A stretch of DNA of 64,000 nt from positions 1 to 64,000 of the forward strand of contig JANQKZ010000020.1 of assembly GCA_028280845.1 (NCBI GenBank). The letters are read 5' to 3'. Under the pieces are notes generated by a model. The model saw only the letters and a program-made list of their open reading frames with translations, searched no databases and was not told the DNA's origin. The number at the start of each line of letters is the position of its first letter. Position 1 is the first letter of the stretch. Made by a program: the position numbers and the translations under genes. Below, one piece after another: positions 46,904 through 55,084 of this stretch. Origin of the DNA: Opitutales bacterium. GTDB taxonomy: Bacteria > Verrucomicrobiota > Verrucomicrobiia > Opitutales > JABSRG01.

Positions 46904-49129
46904 TCAGGCCTTCAATCGAAAGCTCTCCGGATCATCCTCGGGCTGAGGTAAAAATTCTCCGTAGCGCTTCAACCAGTCCTTCAGTTTCCTGATGTAGTAT
47001 TTCGGATCGTAGGGAGCGCTTTCAGGATCAAAGGCATCCAGGGCGTTGGCCCGCTGCCAATCGCTGGTCTGCCCCTTTTCCTTTGGTAGAATGTAGAACG
47101 AAACCTGGTCTCCCATCTTAACCGGCTTATCCATTTTTAAAGCGACCTCCAGCGACGCTCGCCGTGGCTTTCCTCCACTGTCAATTTTTTTGCGGTATGC
47201 TTCCGGGTGCATGCTCAAATACTCTGACTTGGCCAGCTGCCCCACCGGCATCTCGCCGGATTGAATCAGCCCCTCCATACGCTCCATGAGATCAGTTGGA
47301 TTTTCCGGGTCTACGCCAAGGAGATACCGGATCAATTGATCGCTTAAGGACTTGAGGAACGGTTCGGTTCCACGGTTGCGCAAGGCCGAACCCCGGATCG
47401 TGATTTTCTCTCCATCGTAGAGCGCATAGTTTTTCGCCTTATAACAGAACATGGAGTTGTAGCGGCCGTCGTACTCAAGATCGATTCCATCAGGCAGGAG
47501 AGGGTTCACTGTTTCCAGGAGCATCGCTGGGTGGTCCCAGTCCTTGGCAGAGCTGACATAGATCCCGTCGGTATCCGCCTCCAGCACTGTGCCTCCGGAT
47601 TCCTGAAACCCCTCGATCAAAGAAACCAGCAGGTCCCGGCCACGCTGGGTAACCTCCCCAGCCAATTCACTATCCCCAAATCGGGCTCCACCAAATCCAA
47701 GGTACCCGTAAAACGAATTGATCAATATTTTGAAGCTGGCCTGCCGGGCCTGGTACTCCTGGCGCAATTCCTCCGTCTGCGCGCTCTTTGCCAGTTCTTT
47801 ATACCGCAGGCGCTCCTCCCGGAGTTCTTTCAACATAGGGATAAAAACCCCGAGAGAGTCCGATCCCGGATTTCGGCCAATCAACATAAGTAGGCTGGGA
47901 TAGAGGGACGCCACGTCAAAGTGAAGCACATGGGTAAACACACCCACTTCAAAACTTTTTGTATACCCACCAGCAAAGGTCCTCACCTCCGGCATGGCAG
48001 GCAGGCTATAACCCGAATGGTAGTATCTATCGAGGAACAGCATATCAACCTTGTTCGCCGTTCCTCTCAGACAAATTTCCTGCAAAGTCATCGGGAAGCT
48101 TCGGGCCTGTGCGACGTAGGTCGGTAGCAGCACTTCCGCCACCCCCTTGGTTTCTCGCAAATCATCCCTTAAGTAGGATCGAAAGACCTCCCGATCCGAG
48201 TCAAATACATGCTGGATCTGCCCCCCCTCTAAATAAGTACGGTCCTCTCCTGTCTCAGGAGTTACTCCGAGATACCGAGCCACTTCCTTCAAGCCATAGC
48301 TGGGCAGGTCGCGCGTGGAGACATCAAACACCTGGATCATGAGGTAGGTATCAAAGATGGTCCTTCCCGGAATATCGCAACGGATAAAGTCCACTTGCCG
48401 CTCCGCGATCCGAATCCGGCTTGCCCGGGTGGATGCCTTTTGACCAAAGCGGCCCCATTCCGGAGCCACTTTGTAGCGTCGACACCGTTTGTAGATGAAA
48501 TTCAGATCGAAATTAAATAGATTGTGCCCCTCAATGACATCCGGATCCCAGACCAGCAGCTGCTCTCCAAATTGTTTCAACAGGACCCGCTCCGCTGCGT
48601 CGGTCATCGCTTCGATCTCTAACAGGACCTCCTCGTCCCCACGCCGCATTCCAATGGCCAGGACACGATCCCCCGCCCGTGTGGGATCACTGAACCCTCC
48701 TTCTACCTCACAGCTGGTTTCAATATCCACCTGCACCCGCACGACCTGCTGAAAGGGCTGGTCCCCAAAAAGTCGGAGCTTCCAGTCCATTAAGGCCTGG
48801 TTTTCCAGAATCCGGATATATTCCACATCCAGAGCTAAGCTCCGATCCCGGATCAAGCCCCAATAGGCCTCCACATCCTCAAAATGCACCAGGTGGTCCA
48901 ACGGGCCCTCCCCCCTCAGCCGCTCTACCGATACGGTGTCCTCTCCTAAATGATCCGGTACCCCAGACGTCCAGGCAAAGGGCCGAAACGCTGCCACGGC
49001 CTCCCGCACTCCGCCATCTTCCGTCCGGATACATCCATGGACCTCTGCCCCCGGACTCACCCAGAGCCCACACAAAGCTTCACCTGTTTCCAATTCAAAT
49101 GCCACCCCTCCACCATGCACCCCATCCAC
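46904..49129 (-). CDS. polB: Family B DNA polymerase (Pol II-like)
   Basis: The product has about 741 residues. The proofreading exonuclease domain has ExoI DIETSC, ExoII GHNLFNFDLNF and ExoIII SYGLKEVARYLG. The polymerase has motif A HFDVASLYPSLL, motif B KILINSFYGYLG and motif C ADTDGIYVSS. All acidic catalytic residues are present, so it should be active. Bacterial family B enzymes act in repair and translesion restart. The frame opens at GTG 49129, but GTG 49120 has a GGAG at 8-base spacing and may be the true start. A 38-bp perfect palindrome lies 19 bases upstream, which suggests tight repression and perhaps damage induction. It converges with the preceding oxidoreductase gene. Confidence 0.92.
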   Translation of the reverse strand: MDGVHGGGVAFELETGEALCGLWVSPGAEVHGCIRTEDGGVREAVAAFRPFAWTSGVPDHLGEDTVSVERLRGEGPLDHLVHFEDVEAYWGLIRDRSLALDVEYIRILENQALMDWKLRLFGDQPFQQVVRVQVDIETSCEVEGGFSDPTRAGDRVLAIGMRRGDEEVLLEIEAMTDAAERVLLKQFGEQLLVWDPDVIEGHNLFNFDLNFIYKRCRRYKVAPEWGRFGQKASTRASRIRIAERQVDFIRCDIPGRTIFDTYLMIQVFDVSTRDLPSYGLKEVARYLGVTPETGEDRTYLEGGQIQHVFDSDREVFRSYLRDDLRETKGVAEVLLPTYVAQARSFPMTLQEICLRGTANKVDMLFLDRYYHSGYSLPAMPEVRTFAGGYTKSFEVGVFTHVLHFDVASLYPSLLMLIGRNPGSDSLGVFIPMLKELREERLRYKELAKSAQTEELRQEYQARQASFKILINSFYGYLGFGGARFGDSELAGEVTQRGRDLLVSLIEGFQESGGTVLEADTDGIYVSSAKDWDHPAMLLETVNPLLPDGIDLEYDGRYNSMFCYKAKNYALYDGEKITIRGSALRNRGTEPFLKSLSDQLIRYLLGVDPENPTDLMERMEGLIQSGEMPVGQLAKSEYLSMHPEAYRKKIDSGGKPRRASLEVALKMDKPVKMGDQVSFYILPKEKGQTSDWQRANALDAFDPESAPYDPKYYIRKLKDWLKRYGEFLPQPEDDPESFRLKA

Positions 49130-49148: not shown

Positions 49149-49186
49149 GTGTCAATACACAGTGTATATACACTGTGTATTGACAC
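49149..49186. promoter_or_regulatory. 38-bp perfect palindrome upstream of polB
   Basis: Bases 49149-49167 (GTGTCAATACACAGTGTAT) are the exact reverse complement of 49168-49186. The palindrome holds two TACACWGTGTA cores 13 bases apart and an outward TTGACA at each end. It lies 19 bases from the polB start and 64 bases from the divergent ORF at 49251, so it could control both. It shares its outer arm with the palindrome at 52819. Confidence 0.75.
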
Positions 49187-52818: not shown

Positions 52819-52849
52819 GGCCGGTGTCAATACACTGTGTATTGACACC
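52819..52849. promoter_or_regulatory. 31-bp perfect palindrome between putA and dapF
   Basis: The 15-base arm CCGGTGTCAATACAC (52819-52833) is exactly mirrored after a single central T. The 25-base core contains TACACTGTGTA and shares its outer arms with the palindrome upstream of polB. It is placed between the divergent putA and dapF genes and could bind the same regulator. Confidence 0.7.
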
Positions 52850-52861
52850 GGGCATCGAGGA

Positions 52862-52911: not shown

Positions 52912-53754
52912 GTGAAATTTTTCAAATACCATGCCTTAGGGAATGATTATCTCGTCCTGGATCCTGAATTCTGCGAGTCCGCCCCCTCCCCGGCCCATAT
53001 CGAACGGATTTGCCATCGCAACTTCGGTCTTGGGTCCGATGGGATTCTCTATGGGCCCCTTTCCCATGAGGACGCACAGTTCGGGCTTCGCATATTTAAT
53101 CCGGACGGCTCTGAGGCCGAAAAGAGCGGCAATGGTCTACGCATATTCAGCCGGTATTTGTTCGACATCGGTAAGGTAAAAGAAGCGGACCCATTCACCA
53201 TATGGACTCCAGGTGGCAGGGTGGAATCTACGATTCTCGAAGGTGGAAAGTCGGCCAAAGTTGAGATGGGAGCCGTATCTTTTGAGAGCGCCCTGATCCC
53301 CGTGGTGGGCGAACCCAGGGAAGTACTGAACGAAAGCATTGAGCTCGGAGGTAAGGTTTACCTCTATTGTGCTGCCACGATTGGAAACCCCCATGCGGTG
53401 TTCCCCATGGAATCGATTTCAGAATCGTTGGCCATGGAGATGGGTCCCCTGGCCGAGGTGCACGCTAACTTTCCCAACCGGACCAATGTCCAGTTACTCC
53501 AAGTCCTCAACCGCAATGAAATTGCCATCGAAATCTGGGAACGCGGAGCCGGCTACACCCTGGCCTCTGGAAGCTCCAGCTCCGCAGCCGCCGCTGTCGC
53601 TCACCGATTGGGAGCTGTGGACAATCAAATCACGGTGCATTGCCCCGGGGGCGATATCGAAATCGAAATCCGAAATGGCTATCAGATTCTGATGACTGGC
53701 GGAGTCACCCGGGTTGGAGAAATGATTCTGGATCCCGAGTGTTTGACCGATTGA
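52912..53754 (+). CDS. dapF: DapF-family protein lacking both catalytic cysteines
   Basis: The 280-residue product has the two-lobed diaminopimelate epimerase fold: YHALGNDYLVLD at the N-terminus, RNFGLGSDGILYG, the NPDGSEAEKSGNGLRIF loop, TIGNPHAVFP, and ERGAGYTLASGSSSSAAAA. In true DapF the two active-site bases are Cys residues in CGNG and in ETLACGTGAC. Here both codons encode Ser (AGC in SGNG, TCT in ASGS), and the Glu before TLA is Tyr. Epimerisation of LL-DAP by the usual two-thiol mechanism is therefore doubtful. It may act on another substrate, or be regulatory. The start is GTG, and the ligand-contact segments are otherwise well kept. Confidence 0.85.
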   Translation: MKFFKYHALGNDYLVLDPEFCESAPSPAHIERICHRNFGLGSDGILYGPLSHEDAQFGLRIFNPDGSEAEKSGNGLRIFSRYLFDIGKVKEADPFTIWTPGGRVESTILEGGKSAKVEMGAVSFESALIPVVGEPREVLNESIELGGKVYLYCAATIGNPHAVFPMESISESLAMEMGPLAEVHANFPNRTNVQLLQVLNRNEIAIEIWERGAGYTLASGSSSSAAAAVAHRLGAVDNQITVHCPGGDIEIEIRNGYQILMTGGVTRVGEMILDPECLTD

Positions 53755-53784: not shown

Positions 53785-54879
53785 CTATTCCTCAACCATA
53801 ACGGCTCGAAACAGGGCATAACCCGAGGACTCGGACAACGGGATGAGCAAGGGGTTTTCTTCCAAGTAATACTCCCCATAGAGGAACCAATTCCCGGTCG
53901 CCGGGGAATCACATCTCATTAGTTGAACGGCCCGACCAAAGGCTCCGGAAAGCACAAGATATGGAACAGCATTCTGGTTTTTATTTCCATCTCTACCCGA
54001 GGCGGCTCTGGCAGCGGGGTCACCTCATAGCCCTCAGCTTCCAATAAAGCCAGCAGGCCCCACGACCCTGGCAGGTGGGCTGATCCCACAACAATGAACG
54101 CATCCTCGTTTCTATCCAGGTAACCTTCGATGGACGGCATCCAATTCAGATTTCGGTCCTTCAGCATAGGATCCTCATCATAATACGGCCCATCCTGGTC
54201 GATGAGCATAGCTTCGATGACGTTCAGGTCACCTGTCTTCCAGTTATCGATCGATTCAAAGCCACCCTCATGATAATACTCCGGGTGATCGATCAAGTAT
54301 TCGATAAACTGAACCGCCTCCAGTTCGGGGATCGCCTGCTAGTTCGCTTTAATGATGCGGACAGGATCCTTCCAGTCCTCCAATCCGTAAATGGGCTTCC
54401 TACCCCTCCTTGCCCAGTTTTCGAAGTATTCATCGACCCCTTCCGCATCGAAGACGGTATCATCGTAAGCGACCATACCAATGACCATATACAAATAAAA
54501 CCAGGGCTTGTATTGGGGGTCATAGGGGAAGTCCTGGGAGGCCAAAAAGGATTTCAATTGCTCTTGCTGCCGGGGGAGTCATGATGTCCTCCAAGCTTTG
54601 CCCGTAAGGATAGAACGCGCCCTGATGCATAAAATCCCAATATTCTTCCGCAGTGAGGTCGTCGGTGACCGTTTCTAAAACCAGAAGCTCAGTTACCCCA
54701 TAAACAAGATCTAGAAAGTGGGGCATAGGATGGTCTCCTGACCGCAACACATGCACTGACCCCAGTAAATAAATGGAGGAGTCTGCATCCGATATCTGCC
54801 ATATGAGTGGGCGGAATTCCTCTTGGCCCTTCGCCGAGATAGAGATTAATAACCCTAATACGAAAACACATCCTCTCAT
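53785..54879 (-). pseudogene. Decayed TraB/GumN-family protein gene
   Basis: The reading starts at ATG 54879 with a signal sequence (RGCVFVLGLLISISAKG). It continues with the TraB/GumN hallmark IYLLGSVHVLRSGDHPMP. The frame is lost at the CCCCC run near 54571-54575. It resumes as LKSFLASQDFPYDPQYKPWF up to an in-frame TAG (54339-54341), then reads through IPELEAVQFIEYLIDH and the second hallmark VVGSAHLPGSWGLLALLEAE. A third lesion at the A5 run near 53976-53980 shifts into a C-terminal segment ending FRAVMVEE and TAG 53785-53787. That segment resembles short beta-rich tails of verrucomicrobial exported proteins. Two frameshifts plus one nonsense codon make a functional product unlikely. Confidence 0.75.
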
Positions 54880-55084
54880 GAATTTCTTATAGCAGATTGC
54901 ATAGCAATGAAGTAAATGGAAAAGCACTCTCTTCCGCTATGCCGCTGCCCACAGCCATGGAGGACAGAATTCACCTGAATTCCAGATACGAGTCCAAGCT
55001 TCAACGATGACTTCATGAGAGTGGAAACCACCCCACACTCCCCCACAATCAAGATATTCTATACCCCATTCATTACCCCCTATC

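Follow-up and report, generated by a model that had tools for sequence, protein, structure and literature searches.

A DapF-type protein with serines at both catalytic cysteine positions as the probable diaminopimelate epimerase of an Opitutales bacterium

Textbooks describe racemases with the DapF fold as working by two-thiol acid/base catalysis, and covalent inhibitors of DapF, the diaminopimelate (DAP) epimerase, are built on this mechanism. In a stretch of 64,000 nucleotides from an Opitutales bacterium (hereafter the window), however, a DapF-type gene encodes serine at both catalytic cysteine positions. The locus thus raises the question of where the meso-DAP of this cell comes from, and whether a protein without the two thiols could supply it. 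We consider that the gene encodes the cell's DAP epimerase, a member of a distinct DapF clade with serines in place of both catalytic thiols, and give this reading a probability of about two in three. That the Ser/Ser protein interconverts LL-DAP and meso-DAP is what we infer from the pathway context and from the distribution of the gene.

Fold and active site of the Ser/Ser protein

The open reading frame (Table 1) scores 220.4 bits with the TIGR00652 profile (cut-off 114.65) and 167.3 bits with PF01678 (cut-off 34.7), the latter as two half-domains. No Pfam family other than PF01678 matches the protein, the proline racemase family included. By sequence, the protein's nearest neighbours among solved structures are DAP epimerases. 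An AlphaFold model (pLDDT 94.9) also finds its best PDB matches in this group of enzymes, with TM scores of about 0.84–0.91 to those of E. coli, H. influenzae, Pseudomonas, Acinetobacter, and Anabaena. The profile score, the model, and these matches bear out the preliminary description of the locus, which had judged the rest of the fold to be conserved. The replacement of both catalytic cysteines, also part of that description, is read directly from the codons, AGC and TCT, neither of which is TGA; selenocysteine at these positions is thereby ruled out. With no catalytic thiols, the usual two-thiol mechanism cannot operate, as had been stated. The further claim that a neighbouring glutamate is a tyrosine is right about the residue, GAGET having become GAGYT at position 215, but this is not the catalytic glutamate. 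The latter lies in a WER motif (Glu208 in H. influenzae, Glu215 in Anabaena) and is intact here as Glu210. Position 215, for its part, also varies among the Cys/Cys DapF proteins of the alignment, where it can be E, I, V, or N.

Table 1. Coordinates of the Ser/Ser DapF-type gene, its key codons, and nearby features in the window
Feature	Position	Strand	Description
Ser/Ser DapF-type CDS	52912..53754	+	280 aa, GTG start; matches to TIGR00652 and PF01678
Lys71	53122..53124	+	AAG; clade-specific, Met in 19/19 Cys/Cys rows
Ser72	53125..53127	+	AGC, motif EKSGNG; position of the first catalytic Cys (E. coli/H. influenzae Cys73)
Glu210-Arg211	53539..53544	+	Catalytic Glu and DAP-carboxylate Arg; invariant in both clades; role from PMC12039745
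Tyr215	53554..53556	+	TAC; clade-specific, 163/164 rows; Glu of GAGET in many DapF
Ser219	53566..53568	+	TCT, motif GYTLASGSSSSA; position of the second catalytic Cys (Cys217)
Ser222	53575..53577	+	TCC; three residues past Ser219; Gly in 19/19 Cys/Cys rows
Palindrome	52824..52850		Perfect, 27 bases, GGTGTCAATACAC-T-GTGTATTGACACC; between putA and dapF
Palindrome half-sites	near 49149..49184		Other side of putA
TraB/PrgY/GumN-type gene	53919..54296 and 54520..54927	-	Seemingly split
Family B DNA polymerase	46904..49129	-	741 aa, with exonuclease domain

In the model, helices start directly after Ser72 and Ser219, and the cysteines of the DapF fold likewise precede helix starts (PMC11602996). 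The residues that hold DAP were defined in an Anabaena structure (PMC12039745), and the corresponding contact residues are kept over 164 rows (N11, gapped in one row, N63, G73, N74, N159, N192, E210, R211, and G220), with Ser or Thr at position 221; His161 is invariant in the alignment. The changes that accompany the serine pair include Met to Lys71, Cys to Ile78, Glu or Ile to Tyr215, and Gly to Ser222. Because the DAP-contact residues are kept and these changes go with Ser/Ser, the substrate pocket looks DapF-like, with change concentrated in the acid/base machinery. Cys34 was rejected as a replacement thiol, as it is invariant in the clade but also present in 18 of 19 Cys/Cys rows, and is absent in E. 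coli. Lys71 was rejected as an essential base, since a few deep clade members have Ile there.

Spread and conservation of the Ser/Ser clade

When relatives were aligned, as the preliminary description had proposed, serine was found at both catalytic positions in 163 of 163 distinct clade members. Both serine codon families are in use, AGY in 117 of these proteins and TCN in 46 at Ser72, and AGY in 17 and TCN in 146 at Ser219. Passing between AGY and TCN needs two base changes, and a single change would turn AGY, TCC, or TCT into Cys; selection therefore appears to hold serine itself. A recent mutation or a pseudogene is ruled out by the clade-wide conservation together with intact frames. In a maximum-likelihood tree, the Ser/Ser rows lie on one side of a branch with an SH-aLRT value of 95 and the Cys/Cys rows on one side of another with a value of 90, the tree being unrooted and thus showing separate branches, not the direction of change.

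Among the best 80 loci of a scan of GTDB genomes, 80 of 80 are Ser/Ser/Tyr. They belong chiefly to Opitutales and Verrucomicrobia subdivision 3, the other record titles being from Planctomycetota, Myxococcota, Desulfobacteraceae, Cyanobacteriota (Westiellopsis, Aphanothece), Armatimonadota, Chloroflexota, and Sumerlaeota; many clade records are MAGs, and single taxon assignments may be wrong. The cyanobacterial copies sit amid apparently cyanobacterial genes, as judged from open reading frames read by eye. Relatives in the order that carry Ser/Ser share 50–70% identity, with some deep ones at 36–45%, and Opitutaceae loci other than those of Opitutus terrae and Lacunisphaera, such as L125 (titled Opitutus sp. 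GAS368), are Ser/Ser. Of 388 genomes sampled across the phylum, 91 carry a DNA signature of the second site, a count that a few look-alikes also enter; the signature is nearly absent from the other orders of the same class. One genome of 1 Mb (G033) encodes a very divergent DapF homologue (L047) with Ser at the first site and Cys at the second (EMSGNG / TKSCGSGAA), which was set aside as an intermediate since it sits on a very long branch outside both clades. At another locus (L113, contig JANXNI010000058.1, G064:C19), the intact Ser/Ser dapF has a second, broken copy about 4 kb away, whose frame is interrupted by TAG.

Routes to meso-DAP in the source genome and across the order

DapL produces LL-DAP, and meso-DAP is the substrate of LysA and of the MurE usual in Gram-negative bacteria. 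The source genome, which is 97.7% complete, encodes a DapL of the PRK06290 type (676 bits, cut-off 585, in a scan against all NCBIfam models), which falls under the cut-off with TIGR03540 and TIGR03542. It also encodes a MurE with the DNPR motif (495 bits) and a LysA-like decarboxylase that, at 261 bits, is below the cut-off of 298, yet has LysA as its best family. An epimerase acting on LL-DAP is therefore needed. The search for dapF, dapL, and ddh that had been suggested for this genome was run: besides DapL, it found no second dapF, the window's gene being the sole PF01678 gene, and no match to the DAP dehydrogenase Ddh, which is thus ruled out there as the route. The remark that the origin of meso-DAP would call for explanation is thereby vindicated, and the Ser/Ser protein is the only candidate DAP epimerase found in the genome.

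No lysine or cell-wall genes adjoin the gene, and none were seen at six named relative loci read by eye. The palindrome between putA and dapF, whose half-sites recur on the other side of putA, is possibly an operator, a terminator, or a repeat element. The TraB/PrgY/GumN-type gene, whose downstream open reading frame matches profile positions 185–263 only, may represent a frameshift or a pseudogene. A family B DNA polymerase is also encoded in what is a bacterial chromosome.

Across the order, PF01678 is found in 109 of 132 genomes, nearly always as one gene with two half-domain matches. Families f7 and f24 carry, instead of Ser/Ser, a Cys/Cys DapF that is about 30% identical to the window protein, and one genome (G083) has both types. 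Another solution is Ddh, which makes meso-DAP and bypasses the epimerase step. Nine genomes of the order have a classic Ddh (verified in two by TIGR01921, at 449–462 bits); six of them are without PF01678 (G016, G037, G072, G101, G122, and G134) and three combine it with Ser/Ser DapF (G045, G111, and G146). A more distant Ddh occurs in G034, where it passes TIGR01921 at 310 bits, and in G110. Among genomes at least 90% complete, classic Ddh goes with missing DapF (Fisher p = 1.4e-5, or 1e-4 when the two distant Ddh are counted too), in a test that ignores relatedness and in which two lineages are involved (f19/g35 and f16/g17). Within genus g17 alone, genomes have dapF only (G035, G050, and G086), both genes (G111 and G146), ddh only (G016 and G134), or neither (G100). 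In this natural REPLACEMENTS, Ser/Ser DapF, Cys/Cys DapF, and Ddh look interchangeable in the order, the pattern that production of meso-DAP by the Ser/Ser protein would predict.

Six of the 12 DapF-less genomes that are at least 90% complete are also without Ddh; several are small (0.8–1.1 Mb), and the small genomes may have no DAP synthesis. The genome with neither PF01678 nor Ddh in genus g17 (G100) is a single contig of 2.3 Mb, for which an assembly gap, auxotrophy, or a further route to meso-DAP are the alternatives. In nearly all Verrucomicrobiota carriers tested, the Ser/Ser gene is the only candidate DAP epimerase. Outside the phylum, several genomes have no DapF besides it, e.g. the 5.57-Mb chromosome CP070652.1, and it is accompanied by a Cys/Cys gene in cyanobacteria, Armatimonadota, Sedimentisphaerales, Desulfobacteraceae, and an Olavius-symbiont genome.

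Proposed catalysis, rival readings, and known relatives

In the proposed scheme, DapL would make LL-DAP, which the Ser/Ser enzyme would bind in the manner of DapF, its distal amino acid being held by Asn63, Asn159, Asn192, Glu210, and Arg211 and its reacting carboxylate by the backbone of Gly73-Asn74 and Gly220-Ser221. Ser72 and Ser219, at helix N-termini on opposite faces of the alpha-carbon, would then remove and return the alpha proton, and the product meso-DAP would go to MurE and LysA. The weakest step concerns the co-varying Ser222, Tyr215, and Lys71, which may position or activate the serines and so offset the slowing brought by the change from Cys to Ser. Such changes greatly slow the related HisR (PMC11602996), which counts against two-serine catalysis. 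Loss of the thiols need not equal loss of activity, however, because serine serves as acid/base in related enzymes of the proline racemase fold, namely a Ser/Cys hydroxyproline epimerase and a Ser/Thr dehydratase of the proline racemase superfamily (PMC4113996). Also to be counted against the epimerase reading are the Cys/Cys gene beside Ser/Ser outside the phylum, the three genomes with Ser/Ser and classic Ddh, the absence of Ddh from half of the DapF-less genomes with a completeness of 90% or more, and the lack of neighbourhood support.

The preliminary description had offered a choice between a new enzyme activity and a catalytically dead ligand-binding protein. Neither is kept as the first choice here, given that the DAP-contact residues are retained, that nearly all Verrucomicrobiota carriers tested have no other candidate epimerase, and that relatives without the Ser/Ser gene carry a Cys/Cys DapF or Ddh. 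The clade could run another reaction on a DAP-like substrate, as an epimerase, racemase, or dehydratase, some other enzyme making meso-DAP. The alteration of the catalytic pair together with a set of clade-specific residues would suit this reading, as would the keeping of the Ser/Ser gene beside Cys/Cys DapF in some genomes, and precedents exist in the Ser/Thr enzymes of the related superfamily, which are dehydratases (PMC4113996), and in reassigned DapF-like proteins such as HisR (PMC11602996). We nevertheless regard it as distinctly unlikely: the contact residues for DAP are still there, every carrier whose only DapF is Ser/Ser, i.e. most of those tested, would need an additional epimerase, the gene is missing where Ddh is present (six of the nine classic-Ddh genomes), and no gene neighbourhood points to another pathway. 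A dead protein that binds DAP, with peptidoglycan built with LL-DAP and lysine obtained otherwise, is highly improbable. Both serines and the whole active site are strictly conserved, unlike a dead site, a homologue of LysA, which needs meso-DAP, is present, and the relatives without the Ser/Ser gene carry the meso-DAP-making Ddh. These points outweigh the absence of both thiols and the results of a study of Opitutaceae, in which TLC saw no DL-DAP and GC/MS measured DAP, of unspecified stereochemistry, at roughly one-tenth of the amount in E. coli (PMC5303756). The same study credits Opitutaceae with DapL and an annotated DapF (PMC5303756). Also in favour of a dead protein, E. coli DapF is reported to act as a partner of RppH as well (PMC4227774).

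A further reading would have the Ser/Ser protein epimerise DAP and also make D-glutamate in place of the missing MurI, as the chlamydial DapF does. MurI (TIGR00067) has no match in 47 of 52 genomes of the order, the source genome among them, G037, with Ddh and no DapF, does have MurI, and the C. trachomatis DapF, which is PLP-dependent, has both activities, most PVC bacteria being without MurI (PMC5885031). The missing MurI fits that wider PVC pattern. Like the window protein, the chlamydial enzyme (NF038284; PMC5885031) is a DapF homologue from a PVC bacterium that has DapL and no MurI, but it keeps both cysteines and needs them, and the window protein reaches 56 bits with the bifunctional model against a cut-off of 350. 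MurI is, moreover, equally absent with Cys/Cys DapF (f7 and f24) and so does not track Ser/Ser, and G016 has neither DapF nor MurI; a dual role is therefore rather unlikely.

Returning to the epimerase reading, the window protein resembles canonical DapF (TIGR00652; E. coli, H. influenzae, Anabaena 9MRO, and Arabidopsis 3EJX) in length, two-domain fold, and family score, and has in common with it the DAP-contact residues, Glu210, His161, a single-copy gene, and a place after DapL in the pathway. It differs in the serine pair, in its own tree branch, and in Lys71, Ile78, Tyr215, and Ser222, which are specific to the Ser/Ser clade. The H. influenzae mutants C73S and C217S (2Q9H and 2Q9J) show the same positions, replacements, and fold; they were engineered singly to hinder catalysis and aid crystallisation (PMC12039745), whereas the window protein is natural, double, and fixed in its clade. 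Both the Ser/Cys 4-hydroxyproline epimerase (B9JQV3) and the Ser/Thr trans-3-hydroxyproline dehydratase (B9K4G4) are of the same fold class and use the first-site Ser as acid/base (PMC4113996), but they are distant (fold matches at 12–17% identity), act on other substrates, and do not carry a serine pair. The Ser-x-x-Asn first-site motif of the proline racemase superfamily (PMC4113996) is absent from the window protein (S72-G-N-G). HisR, CntK, and O-ureidoserine racemase have a DapF-like fold and other substrates and are sometimes annotated as DapF; HisR and CntK use two cysteines (PMC11602996). In sequence, O-ureidoserine racemase is further from the window protein than true DapF is. The open-licence PMC papers searched did not mention a Ser/Ser DapF, a result that speaks only weakly for novelty.

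Without the defining cysteines, the Ser/Ser protein should not be filed as a canonical DapF, yet it most likely works as one, and this reaction can probably proceed in ways other than the textbook chemistry of two cysteines. A wider claim, held more tentatively, is that the clade may form a thiol-free, cofactor-independent family of amino-acid epimerases that relies on a pair of serines for both proton transfers and is the sole source of meso-DAP, and perhaps of D-Glu too, across most of the order and in several other phyla. If the Ser/Ser clade does stand in for DapF, it would show that thiols are not required, would provide a natural experiment on how an alcohol pulls a weakly acidic alpha proton, and would predict that some organisms do not respond to DapF inhibitors aimed at thiols. 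A curated NCBIfam model labels these proteins DapF despite the missing catalytic cysteines. Opitutales were long claimed to be without DAP and peptidoglycan, and the finding bears on how meso-DAP is synthesized in this order and on the source of D-Glu in MurI-less PVC bacteria.
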